DNA of 64,000 bases from Armillaria gallica (taxonomy: Eukaryota; Basidiomycota; Agaricomycetes; Agaricales; Physalacriaceae), in contig JBANDB010000016.1 in NCBI GenBank assembly GCA_037576215.1, positions 186,001 through 250,000 on the forward strand. Reading direction: 5' to 3'. This document shows, piece after piece, positions 20,505 to 30,069 of this stretch; position 1 is the first letter of the stretch, and every line of letters starts with the position of its first letter. The notes under the pieces are model-generated. The model saw nothing but the letters and a program-made list of their open reading frames with translations, was not told where the DNA came from and searched no databases. Both the position numbers and the translations under genes were made by a program.

Positions 20505-20858
20505 CTACAGCTGATAAAAAAAAAAGAAGACCGCATGCTTAGTGGCAATGCGTATTACGAATTCTCCATTTGGTGCTGTGTCTTCCTTGTTCCAGATCTC
20601 AGTCATGAGAAGGGTGGGATCCTGTTGTGTGTGCTGATTGATAAGCATCAACACACAATGAATCTACAGAAAGCCATTTTCAGAATGTTCTGCAGAAAAT
20701 TGAATGCAAAAGAGTACCAAAAAGTCTGTCTTCAGATCGTTGATGCAGATTCTATAATCCTGAATGGCCTCTTGGAGGTCTTTTGTTTTAAAGAAGCCCT
20801 TGATGCCGGTATGCTTGCGTTCAATTTCGCCCTTCAAGTCTTGGGCTAAGCTTGTCAG

Positions 20859-21063
20859 TAGACTCAAACCACTCCCCAGCTCGGTTGATGACAGTCAATC
20901 AACTAGAGAATAGGGACTGGAACATAATGATCGAGGGCTGGCATGGTCAAATTCTTTCCCACAATTTTTTTGGATTTCGAAAACTTTGGGTCACTGATTT
21001 TGAATTCGAGTATATAGAATTGTGAGGATTAAAAATACAAGATTCGTCATGTTTTTATTTTCT
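20859..21063 (+). repeat. Left terminal inverted repeat of the 7-kb element
   Basis: Pairs with 27,631-27,851. The best conserved part is the outer 105 bases. This copy has TG or CA at most positions where the right copy has CG. Confidence 0.85.
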
Positions 21064-21329
21064 TGATAGCTGGACTGTAGCTCCCGAAATAAATGGATTA
21101 GTGAAATAACCCCTATGGATTACCCTTTTTGGTCAGCGCCAGCGAAGCCATGTCTTTACCACAAGCCATTGCATCACTCCACCATCGTTGCTCTCTGCTG
21201 CGTCAAACACAACCTTATCTCTCTCATGTCATTGACAAGCCCCTACACTGCTTATTCCTGCTGAGGAGCTCCCCTTTTAACTTATAGTTCCATATACAAG
21301 TTCCTGGACATTCTCCTAAATGCAATGCA

Positions 21330-24045
21330 ATGTCTTTTGTTCCCGTCACCTCGCCTGACCCCCAGAAGCTCAACGAAACCAGAAGAATCCTCTGTGAAGT
21401 GTTTAATGTACCTGAACTCCACTCTTTTCAGGATGAAGCTAGGCAAAACATGTTAAAAGGCTTGGATACCATTGCAGATGCACCCACTGGGGCAGGTAAG
21501 ACTTTGTCATTTTTGTATGCGTTATTCTATCACTGGAGGCCTGGAGATATTCCAAACCCACAGACAGACAAGATTATCCTGGTCCTGTCCCTGCTTATCA
21601 GTCTTATGAAAGACCAGGTGAGTATGCACCTAATTGCCTCATTGTATCCTCCCAACCCTGTTCTGTCCAGGCTGCTCAGCTGAATGCACAAGGGGTACCT
21701 ACCATTGCTATTACTTCCAAATCTCCAGACATGGCACAAGACATGGAGGCTTGCAATTCTCTCCTTCTGGATCTGTGAACGTACTGACAGGCATTAGTAC
21801 AACAGTATGCCGGACAAAACAAGTATTGCGTTGTTCTTGTTGAACCTGAACTGTCAAGAAGACACAGTTCCAAGAGCTCATCCTCAGCAAGAAGCAATTC
21901 AAGCACAATATCATTGGGTATGTGGTTGATGAAGGACACTGTGTCAGTGAATACGGCAGAGATGATTTCCACCCAGATTACGCGACTGCTCCTGGGATCT
22001 TGCGTGGCCGTTTGCCTGGAGGACTTCCCATCCTTGTTGCATCAGCCACCATGCTGCCAGATGTGATTACCGATCCCACACATAAGGTTGGGCTAATGTC
22101 CGAGTGTCAAAGAATTGGGATCTCCAATGAAAAGCGCAACATTGCCCTTTCGGTCCGCCTCATTCAGCATGCAGGGGATTCTTATGCTGACCTCTTCACA
22201 CTCATACACCACAATGCTGCGATTCCCGATGACATCAACCAGACCATCATATATGTCAATGAGCATGCAGTTGCAGAACGCATTCAAGATTTCTTCCATG
22301 TCAATGCCAGTAAATTTCCACTGGAATCCTTCGAATTTTATCATTGGCATATTGACCAGAAGAGCAAGGATCGAATACAAGCTGGCCTAATTAGTGGGAG
22401 AATTCGTATTGTCATTAGTACTGACGTGTTAGGTCTGGTAAGTTCGGACTTCCTGGGTGAATAACCGTTGTTCATGTCCATCTGTCCTAGGGTGTTCATT
22501 ATCCACTGATTAGATGGGTTTTCCTCTGGCTTGCGCCATGGACAATGTGCTCTCTTGTTCAGAAGATCGGCCGCATACGAGGTAGTTCTGGAGAGGCAGT
22601 TTTGTATGTCACTGAAGCATACTATATGAAGCACCTTCAAGGATCTGAGAGCTCAGATGATGAGGACAACGAGGATAGTGATGCCAACAAGGGCGTTGAG
22701 GATGAGGACCCAGACCAAGACAGAGACTGCAATGACAGGAGCCCTATACAGGACGAGTTTCATGATGATGAGGACATGGATCAAGATCTGCCTGAGGATG
22801 GGAGGGACTACAATGCTGGAGGTGATGGTGAACATGGCGAACCAGTTTCTGACTCTGATTCTGAGAATGATGAACTGAATCAAACCATGGCACGGTCTCC
22901 TGTAAAAAGAAAACATCGGAAAGGAGTCAAGCAGCTATCTCCAATGGAAGTACAAGACCACCACTTTCTGTACCAATTCGTAGGCACCACCAAGTGCCGG
23001 CGGATCCCATGGAATGAGTCCTTCAAGAACAATGACAAGGGTAAGTTTGTTGCCATTTATCTCGGTGGTATGCTGCCTCTGACTTGACGTCAATTCAGCG
23101 ACAATTCCTGGACCACCACCTGATCCTCGATGCTGCAATAACTGCAACCCCGCTGAGTTTCCAGTGGACACTATCATTGTTACAGGAGATGGAAGACTAA
23201 AGAGTGGACAAAAAGCTAGGAGCTCAGAAGAGGTACATGATGCAGTTTGTGCGGCACTTTTGGTCTTGCGTGAGCACCTTGCAGTGCGACAGTTTGGACC
23301 AGATCAAGTATGGTTTACTGTAGAGTCAATCCTACAGGAATCTGTCATTGAGATCCTTGCACAGCGAGCTCCCTTGATCAATTCTGTTACGTCCATCGGT
23401 GACTATGTCAAATGGGCTTGGGCAGAGAAATACGGATCAGATGTCCTTATGGCGATCCAGCAGATTCTGTCGACATTTCCAGAAGACTCCACAGCAACCC
23501 AAGAGTGGCTCAGACAAGAGAAGGACCAGCGAGCTAAAGAGCAAGCACTAGCTGTCGATAATCATGACAAGATGCTGGATATATTCCGAGGGTGTGACTC
23601 TGTGGTTGATGCATTGACCTGGACCGACGACAAAGGCAAGGAATGCGCACGTATACAGCCATTTTTGCATGCTCCTAGTCACAGGGTGAGATTCATCTTG
23701 CAGTGCTGATGAGGCTGACTTATCACTCACTCTCAGCATCATCCTCAATACTATGAGATGTTCTGAGAGGAGGATGTCATTTCTGTTGCCAACATACGTG
23801 CAAACATCAAGTGATGAACTCATTACAAGTCAGTGGAAACATATTATCAAGACTGGTGCCGACTGTTTGACAATGCATGGGCATATAATGAGACTGATTC
23901 TGTGATATTTGAATCAGCTGATATCTTGCAGTCCAGCTTGGAAGTATATCTTCATGCTCAGCTTTCCAATACAGGTTTACCTGGTGCAGACGATGTTCGG
24001 ATGGCCATAGAGACACGCAAAGAGGATATCATTATGTATGACTAG
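21330..24045 (+). pseudogene. RecQ-like DEAD/DEAH helicase with C-terminal bromodomain, decayed
   Basis: Exons: 21330-21617, 21671-22437, 22491-23040, 23099-23685 and 23737-24045, with 50-60 base GT-AG introns. Superfamily 2 motifs in order: DAPTGAGKT (motif I), VVDEGHCVSEYG (motif II, DEGH rather than DEAH, with the RecQ-type HCVSxxG following), VASATM (III), STDVLGL (V) and LVQKIGRIRG (VI). Exon 3 continues into a very acidic linker, then a CCNNC motif and a helical region. Exon 5 encodes a bromodomain. Lesions: TGA at 21,776 and 21,785, a frameshift near 21,855-21,862, and TGA at 23,764, 23,812 and 23,815. The ATG at 21,330 is about 270 bases inside the left repeat. The full product would be about 830 residues. 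RecQ homologues unwind DNA; a role in the element's replication or repair is inference. Confidence 0.7.
23737..24045 (+). other. Bromodomain-encoding last exon of the helicase gene
   Basis: Reads HHPQYYEMF, SVANIRANI, HYKSVETYYQDWCRLFDNA, YNETDSVIFESA and TGLPGADD. This matches the order of a Snf2/Brahma-type bromodomain: the ZA-loop residues, the FNNARxYN-like block and the acidic tail. It is spliced in frame to exon 4 and ends at TAG 24,043-24,045, 8 bp before the opposing stop codon. Three in-frame TGA codons lie within it. Assignment to bromodomain is from motif recall. Confidence 0.6.
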
Positions 24046-24053
24046 CACGAAAT

Positions 24054-27000
24054 TTACATTGCATCCCCAGTCAGCATATCTGCTTGAGTGAACACTGTAG
24101 TGATTGCATTATAATCCTCCTCATTATCCATTGCCAAGTCTTCCATCGTAGGTCCATCATTCATCAAGTCAGAGCTACCTTCTGTCTCCTCCTGCTGTTC
24201 ACCATCATCCTCATCACCTGAGTCATCAGGGGGATCAACAATGCCTATGTTCTGGACACGTCGGGGATCAGCACGAAACTTATGAAAGGCTTTTTTTCGT
24301 TGGGATATTGAACCCCGTTTCGAATTAAATCCCGTACAGGTGTGATATGCTCATTTCCGGCTCGTCTTGGCACATATGATTGAATGTTTTCAGCTTGCAA
24401 AGCATCGCTTATGGCCTTCACCTCGAGAGTGATGTCAGGGTTGGTGTGTTTAGTACCATAGCCAGGAATACTAAACGCCTTGTGGACAGTGCGCATGGCA
24501 TCTCGGAGAGTCCAGATACAGACAGTGATCATGGACAGCCACTTCCAACTCCGATTCGTACCCTTGGCATTGTATATCACCTTGGCCCAGAAATTTTGAT
24601 GTTCCTGAAGGAGATCGACCTCTTTGAACCCATCAGACTGACCAGTCAGGTTGACCAGCCAGTTATCAAGGATTGTATCCCTACCGATGAGTCAGTGTCA
24701 GAGCAGATCAACAGATTCCATTGCACCTACCGAAGAATAGGATCATATGTTTTGAGACAGCCAAGTAATTCGAAGGTAGCATCTGCATATCGTGGCATGG
24801 TTGCCACACCATGCATCATGACCATCCAGACATTAAGGACATTTCTAACATGGCCAATGTTGCCGTGTTTAACTGCATGAACAAATTCAATGTAGAACAG
24901 TGCATCACGGTTATAGAGAATGGTGTTCTCAAGTGTGAAGTCCCGGCTGTCATCTGGCTCACTGCGTAGGCGCTCAAGCTCTTTAGTAGAGAAGAGCTTG
25001 TCAACAACGACTCGTGCTACCCACCTAACCTCATCCAATGTAGTGTTCTTGGCCCATTCTGACATGCTCACTTGTCCACAGTGGATTCAGAAGCCATCAA
25101 TGATGTGCGCTGACAGGGAAATATGAAGAAGTTCGTGAGATGGTCTCCAGGGTGTTGCCTTATTTCCCTTCCAACCGGCAGAGATGGGTTTGCGCCCTAG
25201 CAGAGTATTACTCTCCCACCATAGACCACCAGGTAGATTACCATTAGGCTTTCCCCAGTGCTCATTGGTGACATGCCGACATCCTGCCATCTTTGCATGG
25301 AATAACCCCCAGATACGAGTTGAGGCCTTTATTCCCTCAATGATCTCCTCGCAGTTTCGTCGCGCCGCTTCAATCTTAGGCAAAATAAGAAACTAAAAAA
25401 AAACGAGATGCATATGTTGGTACCACGTACCTTATCCATTAAGGAGTCAGTAAGTAAATCTCCATGAGTAAAGAGAAGTCCATGCTTGACTAGATCCTCG
25501 TCACTGAGCTTGAGGTACTGTGTTAAAATGGTGATATACACTCGGATGGTGCCCTCAATACTGGACTCGTCTATGTGCATGGCTGGCATGGGATAATGTT
25601 CTGTAATGTGTACAAGGATTTGGCGAACAGTGGGGCATGCCTCCAGAGTCTCTAGAAGGTGCTGAAGCTCGGGGACATGCTCAATAGCAAGGCGCATGAT
25701 CTGTCAGAGTGTACAAGCTGTGAGTTCGTCTAAGGTTTGGCGATCGGGAACCGCATGTGTGATGTCCCAGTCAAAAAGAGGGTCAGTCGTCTTCCGTTCT
25801 GGTTTCATAGAAACAGGAACGGTACCATGCGGTAGTCGCTGACGTTCCTCCATACCCCCAAATAAAACGAGGAGTGTAGCAGTGGTTCCGTTATCAAAAT
25901 GATCCTTCAAACCAAAACGCTGCTCTCCGACACGAAATGGGCTGTTCAGGTTATCCCAGACAACACTGCACATACATTCCTGTATGACACCCATTTGTTC
26001 CTTCATACCCTCATTGGACATCTTCTTAATGTGATCGAGAATCGACGTGTATGAGACACATAGACCAGCATGTGCAAGAACTGCAATTTCACGTTTAGCG
26101 GCACCAGATCCAGATAGGAAAAGCCCCATTGTCAGCTGGAAATTATTGGCCTTCTGCAAGTGCAGGATACTAATCATGGCACAGATGCATGTCAACACCT
26201 TTGTTGGACGTCAGAGATCTATCAATCAAGGTTTGCGAAGATCTCACCAATGATTTGTCACGCTGTACTTCCTCGTTCTCATATGCAGCAGTCATCGATG
26301 CGGATGTGAGTGCATCCCATATAGTAGGGGCGGCTGCTTGAAACTCATTGGCTAATTCATCCATGGAGAATGCCTGCAGTAGGTCCAATATTTTTGTTGT
26401 CCATTGACGTGTCATCAATTTTTGAATGGCTTGTCCTTCTCGCTCAAAGGCCCTGCGTAGAACCTCAGAAAAGAATTCCTCTTCTGCCTGCGGCGCCTGT
26501 CTAGAAATAGAACGCATGTACTCTAGCCCGTGATCCAGAGCCCACCGAGTACGATTTGCTGCTGTCTGAGTATCCAATGTTGGTCCCATAAGACTTGCCA
26601 TGAAGTGGCCAATGTTCTTGAATCCCGCACCGCCTTGATCTGTCGGTGTGCAGATGTTCTCCTTCACGGTTTTCCAAGCATTTTCCGTATCCTCTAGCTT
26701 GCGAAGGGTAGCTTCGAGATCCTTCTTTGCTTTATTCGTTGCATTACGACTCTCTTGTATCAGCCGCTGTTCTTCCTTCTGGCGGAGGCGTTCTGCTTCT
26801 GTTGCTGCTATTCTTTCCTCGTGGGTCTGACCACGTCTGGTATGCTTGGATTTGGAACCTTTGGGACGCCCCCGTCTACTGCCAGCAACCTTAGTCACTG
26901 GTGCGATAGGCAGATCTTCCATCCGCACATGTGCAGGTGAAGACTCCGGCGGTAGTGATCGGGATCGTACAGGTGACGCTGTTATCACTGTTGGTATTTG

Positions 27001-27573
27001 AGGGATAGAGGATAGAGATGCAGAGAAAAGATCATTAATATTAGATGGTGTACTAGTAAACACATCTGATGGAGGAGATAAGCGGGAGGAAGGAGGTGGG
27101 AATGGCACAGAGGAGGATGGCAATGACGGCGGTGAGAATTGTGCGGGAGTTTTGGGCGGGGATAGCGAAGTAAATGGAGAAGAGAAAGGTGTAGGAGAAT
27201 GCCGAGGAAGACCACTTGGGGTAGCAGGAAGGAAAAGTGGTCGTGAGAGAGAAGGGTTTTGGTGGCTTGGGCGTGTTGCTGGTGTTGTAGACCTTGCACG
27301 ACCACGACGTGTGGGCGATGAGAAAGGAGTTGAATCCGTGTCTTCTCCATCAGATTCAGAAGATGTTGATGCATTAGAGGTGGCTTCAGAGTGTCGTGAT
27401 GTCGAGGCATGTGGCAAGGGGCTTGATCCAAGATCTGAGCTTGTGGCTGATGCATCGAAAGCAGTTGTGGGCCCCCGAGTCCTAAGTTTCTTAGGAGAGA
27501 AGTGCTTCTGTGGACTTGAGCCTTGAAAGCTTCGCTCTTCAGACGGAGAGCGTGAACGACGCTTGAATACCAT
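24054..27573 (-). pseudogene. DUF6589-family protein, candidate transposase, with AT-hook; lightly decayed
   Basis: Exons on the minus strand: 27573-26248, 26198-25431, 25374-24731 and 24680-24054, about 1,120 residues. The N-terminal 230 residues are Ser/Pro-rich and disordered. An AT-hook (SRRGRPKGSK) lies at about 231-242, then a charged coiled coil to about 305. The DUF6589 region starts with LHLQKANNFQLTMGLFLSG and includes VVWDNLNSPF, HIDESSIEG, THGDLLTDSLMDK, GLFHAKMAGC and a C-terminal FWAKVIYNAKG block, ending in an acidic tail. Lesions: TGA at 25,704 (probably an old Trp or Arg codon), TGA at 25,087 (Arg position), and a one-base shift in the A7 tract at 24,291-24,297. The conserved WDN and GDLLT aspartates could belong to a DDE/RNase H fold; that is inference. 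Confidence 0.72.
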
Positions 27574-27630
27574 ATTGTGGCTGTTGGGAGAACTATTTTG
27601 CCAATTAAAGGACTTCTGGGGCGAATTCAA

Positions 27631-27851
27631 AAAAAATAAAAACATACAGCGTCTTGTATTTTATATCGCTACCACCGAGTATATTTACAGAGAGAAAGGA
27701 GAGATGAAGTTTGGGGGTCTAGGCGGGGTAAGAGATTAAATCGTGGGAATAAATTTGACCGTGCCAGCTCTCGATCATTATGTTCCAGTCCCATCCGCCT
27801 GCCCGAGTTGATCGATTGTCATCAACTGGCGGTGGGACTGGTTCGAGTCTA
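27631..27851 (-). repeat. Right terminal inverted repeat of the 7-kb element
   Basis: Inverted match of 20,859-21,063. It retains CpG at sites where the left copy has CA or TG, for example in GACTCGAACC and CCCACGATTT read inward. Confidence 0.85.
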
Positions 27852-28223
27852 GCTCGTCAGATACCTATAGGTCTATTGTTAGCCGGGAACAAGAGATAGA
27901 GTATTACGGCTTACGCTTCCATCTCTGCACAGGCGTCCTTGAAGCACGCCGCTCCAGCTTCTTCGTGCATAGTAACCATGGTATTGATAACAACAACCGT
28001 GTTTGCGATGCTCTCACATAGAGCTTTGACGTCCTTCTTGTTCTTTCCCCTTTGCTATATGAACGGAAGAGTCAAAATTCGAAAGCAGCAGTCAAAGTAC
28101 CGGTGTACGAGCCTCTAGGAGCTCCATTACGGCCACGGTGACCTTGGCGAGCTTTTCGATATATGGAATTCCAGAGGCTTCGGCGAGGCTGGCGACTTGG
28201 AGACAGGCGTTGAGTGAAGGCAT

Positions 28224-30069
28224 AGTGGTGGGTGGTAAGACGTGTGCTGTAATGGGCGATGCAGACAAGTACCAAGCACGTCAAGCTCGAAGCGCTGTGG
28301 CATCAAGAAGAGGTGCTGTAGAATGAGATAAGATAACAGAAAACCGCAATGATGATGGACACTAACCAAGAATTACGTGACACAAAAAGTGAGCCAAGGC
28401 CTATTGATGTAAGGAGGGAGCATAACTAGACGGGTCATGCCTTTCGATATCCTGGGATCTGTTGAACGAGACATTTAGAAGGGAGCATACAGGTACTCAG
28501 CGCTCAGCTTGCATCGTGAATGTCTGACAGGGAGTTTTTCGTCTAGTACAAAGATGAATATAGTAACGAGAACTTGGATGATGCACCGACAGATACGGGT
28601 TGCAACGCTACTCTCTCTAAATGCCAATCATCTGATGAGACGGTTTATGATAAATACATGAATGCCGAAGTATAAGGACAAGCAGATTAAAGTGATCGAA
28701 ATTCAGAGGGCAAGACAGTGGAAAGACAAAGCTAGCGAATCGAAATAGAGGACTAGCGTGATATCGGTGCTTGCCGCAGCAAAGAATATCTTTTCTTTAT
28801 TGTTGACCGTGATGTACAGAGTAAGTTGTAAGGGAAGAGCGCACCCATGAGAATAATAACGCACCAGGGGCCAGAAAATATCACGCAGAAAAATACTCGT
28901 TGAAAGAGAGTCAGACCATCGGACCAAATTATGAGGTCGAGAATGGAGCTAGAAAGAGCGGTCTGTCCGGCCCGACGAAAAATCGCGCTGATGGCGTGGG
29001 AACTTTCGGATTTTACCCTGTCACTCACCTACTTCCTCCTCCAGCGACTATTTCACCAGCACCCCGTCATGCACCTATGGTCCAGCCGCCACGATAAAAC
29101 TACGACCAAGATGAAACTGCAAGAGCTAGAGCTAGTCACTGCATCCCCTCTGATTCCTTGATGGACTTGCAGTCTGAGCTAGGCGGCGGACCCAAGCTGA
29201 GCGCGAGCGGAGTAGCTTTACCATCCGTGCGTTAACTACTCACTGTCGATTCATCGTGATTTTGACTTCGTCAACAGGCGCGCACGGGTCCCGGACTCAA
29301 ATCCATGTGTACTTCGCAATTTCGTGTCTTCTCCCCATTCGACCTGTCTACGTTCGTCTCATCGCTCTTACTGGACGTTGCCGTGAGAAGCCCCAAACCT
29401 GTACCGCAAATCTCCGAAGCTCAACGACGCCCGTATCCTCTGAACCTTGTTTGGTCCGCGCGCGGTCGTCGGCATCCGGCATCGTTCGACGGATATGAGG
29501 ATGATTGCGCTTCTTGACGAGACACGGACCTTCAAGCTTCAGAAGTCGACCGAGATACACCACCTATACCGTTAGCTAATTGATGTCGGGCATCAAAGTA
29601 GGCAGGAATGGTAGCGGGTATTCAGTGAAGATGCTGCAGTACCATTTCATGACGCTTTAGGGATACATCGAGTGCGTCTCGCACTGTTCTTATCTTCGAA
29701 TTTTTACTAAGAATATCTTGTTTTCTTTGTTCTCCTTCGTCAGGCGTACCCTGTTCATGAGCGGCTTCATGCGGTCTGGGGTACCGAGTTGGTACCGAGC
29801 CCTTCCAACATTATGGCGACGGCCCCGAGCAAGTACAAAGCGACCATACCTCCAGACACGGTGAATCGTCGTTCGTCTTGCAGACGTCTACAAATTCACT
29901 TGTCAAGGGATATTTGTTTTTGGTAAGTTTCCGTCATCATTACGTTCTTTGGTTATCTTATCAGATTCTACAGCACCTCTTCGTAATGCCACAGCGCTGC
30001 GATTCTGCGAGTTAGCGCGCGCTTCTGCATCGCCCTCTACAGCAAAAGTCTCTCTTACTACCAACCACC
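28224..30069. other. Spacer upstream of 4HB copy G
   Basis: Bases 28,224-28,900 show nothing recognised. From about 28,950 the repeated spacer module seen at 9,740, 38,330 and 41,110 begins, and it ends in the shared 4HB leader. Short open frames at 29,256-29,517 lie inside this module. Confidence 0.5.

Follow-up and report, generated by a model that had tools for sequence, protein, structure and literature searches.

A decayed DUF6589 and RecQ-like helicase gene pair in Armillaria gallica as a probable AcademH-type DNA transposon

The subject of this analysis is a probable DNA transposon of Armillaria gallica, located at positions 20859-27851 of a 64,000-nucleotide stretch of contig JBANDB010000016.1 (hereafter the window) and corresponding to C16:206859-213851 of the genome. 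Two genes lie within it on opposite strands, a RecQ-like superfamily-2 helicase gene on the forward strand (21330..24045) and a DUF6589 gene on the reverse strand (24054..27573). The genes are convergent, such that the helicase stop codon TAG (24043-24045) and the DUF6589 stop codon (24056-24054) are separated by 8 bp, and these coordinates bear out the arrangement described in the initial annotation of this DNA. Both termini, when read inward, start TAGACTC.AACCA. The left terminal inverted repeat (20859..21064, forward strand) starts TAGACTCAAACCA, is best kept in its first ~110 bp and has related ends elsewhere in the genome, and the right one (27630..27851, reverse strand), defined by alignment of the arms, reads inward as TAGACTCGAACCAGTCCC. 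Alignment of the terminal arms 20859-20967 and 27738-27851 gives 80% identity across 115 columns, a deeper 33-bp match joins 21032-21064 to 27630-27662, and weaker similarity extends to ~206-222 bp inside; inverted ends of about 205 bases, as first described, are a fair account, yet the similarity is gapped. The element is flanked by the unstranded direct copies GCTTGTCAG (20850..20858) and GCTCGTCAG (27852..27860), which are equal at 8 of 9 bases and confirm the proposed 9-bp target-site duplication (TSD). A TSD scan of the window stretch returned a single match at 9 bp, the element's own, and none at 7, 8, 10 or 11 bp.

The helicase gene comprises several exons, and its identification draws on the DEAD domain, the reading frames, the relatives and the RecQ match of a paralogue. 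In the Pfam scan the DEAD domain in exon 1 was above cut-off (E 2.3e-8), while Helicase_C was below it in the window copy (E 0.015) and above it in all eight relatives rescanned. For the paralogue at locus L019 the best PDB match was RecQ (E 5.4e-15). The other Pfam matches of the helicase, to ResIII, RecQ_Zn_bind and a Cas3-like family, were weak and below cut-off, and no nuclease domain was above cut-off in the helicase scans. Part of the last exon (23737..23960, forward strand, end approximate) encodes a bromodomain, matched by PF00439 at E 3e-7 with stops translated as X, so that the helicase with a bromodomain exon noted earlier is upheld by both the DEAD and the PF00439 matches. The gene is decayed: its frame is broken near 21850, and stop codons interrupt the reading frame of the bromodomain exon. 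Its nearest relative is P0122 of Armillaria borealis (84% identity, 688 aa, listed as an open protein). A protein search with the helicase gave 37 matches, 15 of which are close (E < 1e-100) and all Agaricomycetes by name. A precomputed bromodomain annotation is present in 6 of these 15, and on rescanning the domain was found in four of eight close relatives (E 1.2e-8 to 8.3e-16); P0122 is one of the four rescanned proteins in which it was not found, and Pfam returned none in the single helicase exons of L019, L020, L021 and L029. Because only part of the rescanned or annotated relatives carry it, the bromodomain is best regarded as a trait of one helicase branch, perhaps overlooked in some gene models.

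The DUF6589 gene is modelled as exons 27573-26248, 26198-25431, 25374-24731 and 24680-24054; its nearest relative is the Armillaria borealis protein P0002 (94% identity, 929 aa, listed as an open protein). PF20231 was matched by four of five exon pieces (E 5.3e-30 to 5.4e-16), and the fifth piece, 25707-26210, had no Pfam match. The N-terminus is long and of low complexity and contains GRPKGSK, which resembles an AT-hook; the earlier description of a large AT-hook DUF6589 protein therefore stands, with the motif worded as AT-hook-like. This gene too is decayed: stop codons interrupt the frame at 25706 and 25089, and the frame changes near 24300. The initial annotation had called the transposon complete, which holds for its outline and not for its genes, since both carry in-frame stops and frame breaks.

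What could such a protein do? A structure comparison of the predicted DUF6589 model returned RNase H-fold transposases or RAG1 in all of rows 1-29, the closest match being the hAT transposase Hermes. The predicted protein contains an RNase H-like core with three conserved acidic residues (D, D, E) at the expected places and, as in Hermes, a large helical insertion, here located after the last core strand and before the helix bearing the proposed catalytic Glu. Conservation together with the predicted structure places the candidate residues at the WDN Asp (D332 in P0002; codon 25953..25955, reverse strand), the GDLL Asp (D497; codon 25458..25460, reverse strand) and the Glu of LLQEHQNFW (E747; codon 24602..24604, reverse strand). 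The possible catalytic aspartates in WDN and GDLLT that were first suggested are supported in this way, the Glu of LLQEHQNFW being the best third residue, and the RNase H fold with clustered acidic residues that had been anticipated appears in the model. A PDB sequence search with the DUF6589 profile gave nothing useful (a single row, FlhA, E 2), and no relative turned up when a viral contig collection was scanned with the DUF6589 alignment. Among the matches listed, the DUF6589 relatives with names are all fungal, and no named Academ protein is among them. With the divergent DUF6589 of L023 as query (184 matches), the named proteins among the 120 listed were likewise fungal, with no named Academ protein and no named animal relative.

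The pairing of the two genes recurs in this genome. Six-frame matches to PF20231 (38 in all) were grouped by hand into 18 loci including the window, and the sequence set comprised 10 kb around the 17 other DUF6589 loci, three places located through their ends, and the window stretch together with four adjoining ones. Both tested parts of DUF6589 were present at 16 loci, L034 and L035 being fragments. A helicase of the same family lay within the same 10 kb at 14 of these 16, as scored with profiles built from the same loci, and was not found within the 10 kb examined at L024 and L033. No helicase match was obtained in 139,697 control bases, drawn from the remainder of the window and from other loci, of which some overlap. 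The adjacency that the initial annotation expected is thus present at most loci. The genes lie on opposite strands in 14 of 14 pairs; the convergent arrangement proposed for them holds in ten and fails in the other four (L020 and L029-L031), which are divergent. Since L029, L030 and L031 are ~99% identical, the pairs amount to about 12 independent cases. The converse association is weaker: with one piece from the window as query, 9 of 12 helicase matches fell at DUF6589 loci and 3 elsewhere, namely at C20:274121-274552, C20:193915-194178 and C4:4678783-4679214, and these off-locus members of the family may be remnants or independent genes.

The ends recur as well. When 21 sequences were scanned for TAG...CTA ends flanked by a TSD with no more than one mismatch, six matched at 9 bp (the window, L022, L023, L025, L028 and L032), and the lengths 7, 8, 10 and 11 bp together yielded two (L021 at 8 bp and L037 at 7 bp). 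A looser scan on eight loci added L027 with a perfect 9-bp TSD, returned L021 again at 8 bp, and placed no ends for L019, L026, L024 and L033. In total, TAG...CTA ends and a TSD of 8-9 bp enclose 8 of the 10 convergent pairs; the TSD is 9 bp at the window and six other bounded pairs and 8 bp at L021. A 17-base end motif, with one mismatch allowed, matches the genome 178 times compared with 13 for a reversed control pattern. Many of the 178 are facing pairs 77-112 bp apart, as in a family of miniature inverted-repeat transposable elements (MITEs) moved in trans. In a sample of 13 facing pairs separated by under 120 bp, taken among the motif places listed, the flanking 9 bp of these MITEs (77-112 bp) are equal at 7 or more of 9 positions in 13 of 13, at 8 or more in ten, and perfectly in eight, and none of the 13 shows a near-perfect duplication at 6-8 or 10-12 bp. 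Besides the window's own ends, eight further end-like places were inspected, of which three proved to be short copies, of 577, 97 and 98 bp, each flanked by a perfect 9-bp TSD, and five gave no end pair. Because MITEs and short copies carry 9-bp duplications, the ends are mobile and joined with a 9-bp stagger, and the ends shared with other copies that the initial annotation had looked for are present both at the bounded pairs and at the MITEs.

These results bear on two explanations that dispense with a DUF6589 transposase. The bromodomain and the RecQ helicase are host-like domains, and one could imagine two ordinary host genes that are neighbours by chance between chance inverted repeats; however, the recurrent pairing and the common ends argue against this, and the 9-bp TSDs of the MITEs contradict it, so that we give it almost no probability. 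A helicase-driven, Helitron-like element would agree with the recurrence of the helicase, but apart from weak matches below cut-off Pfam shows only DEAD, Helicase_C and the bromodomain in it, with no nuclease above cut-off. Helitrons are without inverted ends and without a fixed 9-bp duplication, both of which are seen here, and the MITE duplications further disfavor an explanation that is in our judgment extremely improbable. The helicase-coupled transposon with DUF6589 as its catalysing enzyme, as the modelled fold suggests, is the reading carried forward.

A fundamental question is to which group of transposons such an element belongs. A 9-bp TSD is also a trait of MULE transposons, whose PF10551 was not matched, the DUF6589 exon pieces matching PF20231 only. 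The AcademH type was reportedly described by Kojima in 2020, in Mob DNA 11:15. According to the available part of one account, AcademH encodes a helicase and has a TSD of 9 or 10 bp, whereas its sister lineage AcademX carries a nuclease instead and has a TSD of 3 or 4 bp, a difference suggested there to go with helicase versus nuclease (PMC10045372). AcademH is low-copy in Basidiomycota, Ascomycota and Mucoromycota in the portion available of another (PMC10799480), and Marasmius oreades was noted to contain non-autonomous Academ elements (PMC8290104, available in part). The present family resembles AcademH, by description, in its 9-bp TSD, in the RecQ-like helicase beside DUF6589 at 14 of 16 loci and in its fungal occurrence, Basidiomycota included. 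From these published descriptions of helicase, TSD and host range, membership in AcademH is probable, and we consider it quite likely that the window holds a decayed two-gene DNA transposon of this type, with DUF6589 as its DDE transposase and the RecQ-like helicase as accessory. The initial proposal of one transposon type with this division of roles is largely right, catalysis and the role of the helicase being deduced; the kind of element, a helicase-encoding transposon with a 9-10-bp TSD, is already known as AcademH and is not new.

Other helicase-bearing or mushroom-common groups fit less well. The hAT transposases resemble DUF6589 in having an RNase H fold and a large helical insertion, but usually produce 8-bp TSDs in the available text of PMC12730594; here the TSD is 9 bp, a helicase is present, none of the 13 MITEs is near-perfect at 8 bp, and no hAT Pfam match was found in the open reading frames scanned. 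KolobokH combines a transposase with a RecQ helicase in fungi (PMC9587614, available in part), with the helicase downstream of the transposase domain and the 4-bp TSD TTAA of Kolobok, whereas the TSDs here vary in sequence and are 9 bp. The fact that RecQ-type helicases also occur in KolobokH, and thus join unrelated transposases, together with an AcademH likeness drawn from published descriptions, leaves some room for DUF6589 as a separate superfamily convergent with AcademH in helicase and 9-bp TSD. We regard this as unlikely, as helicase, TSD and Basidiomycota occurrence all fit the AcademH descriptions available. KDZ elements (Kyakuja, Dileera, Zisupton) are common DNA transposons of mushrooms, and a related gene pair is present in a giant member of the group in this genome, but their transposase is PF18758 and their TSD 7 or 8 bp (PMC12730594, in its available part); no PF18758 was found in the window reading frames scanned, and none among the matches listed inside C16:206859-213851.

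Four giant elements of 34-42 kb were delimited at C15:1961502-2000585, C17:1556188-1597772, C5:3651929-3690971 and C15:1718223-1752196, partly within loci L029-L031, L039-L041 and L057-L061. Their outermost ends are unlike (GAGGCTATACTG and CACCCTTGGGTG) and are followed by subterminal inverted repeats; each of the four is flanked by a 7-bp TSD without mismatch, identified by eye (GCAAAAG, TAGTTCC, ACAGATA and AACTGAC), and contains a KDZ transposase match. The divergent pairs L029-L031 sit within three of them, copies of a 39-kb element, and in the fourth, of 34 kb, the PF20231 genome scan gave no DUF6589 match. As the three copies are near-identical, there are about two independent cases. 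Because these pairs lie inside KDZ elements with 7-bp TSDs, a KDZ-type transposon has evidently acquired a related gene pair. Ends belonging to the divergent pair itself were not found: the C13 copy and L029 cease to be homologous within apparent coding sequence, and no TSD was seen. Only one of the three near-identical giants contains a 2.4-kb insertion (L031:743-3153, on C17), which has inverted ends of 25 bp and is flanked on either side by TTAAAC. The giant elements demonstrate that capture happens, which would favor DUF6589 and helicase as passengers between ends moved by another transposase. However, at eight bounded elements the pair is the content between the ends, DUF6589 itself has a predicted transposase fold, and the Pfam scans of the window reading frames tested gave no other transposase family; this explanation is accordingly very improbable.

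For the AcademH-type element, we propose that DUF6589 would bind and cut the TAGACTC.AACC ends and then join these to target DNA across a 9-bp stagger, repair of which would leave the 9-bp duplication. The RecQ-like helicase, as an accessory, would most likely open or process the transposon ends or resolve the strand-transfer product. Chromodomains tether some retrotransposons to chromatin, and by analogy the bromodomain, in the branch that has it, may anchor the complex on acetylated chromatin. More speculatively, DUF6589 as a whole could be the transposase family of one helicase-coupled mushroom lineage, in one branch of which the helicase gained an acetylation-reading bromodomain that steers insertion, the related pair in 39-kb KDZ-type transposons maybe aiding their movement; this wider scheme is tentative. 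That a two-gene transposon explains the expansion of both families, as the initial annotation supposed, is plausible. The literature search gave no mention of DUF6589, nothing relevant for PF20231, and no paper by title on bromodomain, helicase and fungal DNA transposon together; relative to that literature, three points look new: the reading of DUF6589 as a transposase with an RNase H fold, the bromodomain, and the related pair inside 39-kb KDZ-type transposons. A Pfam family of unknown function that is common in mushroom genomes thereby gains a testable function with three named candidate catalytic residues, and a large number of mushroom genes now labelled 'hypothetical' could be recognized as belonging to transposons. 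The bromodomain offers a concrete targeting hypothesis, and the gene pair a system for asking why some DNA transposons need a helicase.

Linkage of the two genes extends to other species. For 8 of the 15 close helicases, a DUF6589 protein of the same species lies on a contig of the same size, among the 120 DUF6589 relatives listed; the sizes are 319578, 195065, 8369409, 1750532, 382660, 97137, 518374 and 4460 bp. Several of these contigs are long, and they therefore indicate linkage, not adjacency, which only the 4,460-bp contig of Lentinula raphanica demonstrates. P0002 and P0122 of Armillaria borealis are very likely on one contig, as both contigs are 319,578 bp. Just beyond the element, an 82-bp inverted repeat (84% identical) joins window positions 28291-28372 and 29917-29998 over a 1.7-kb span.
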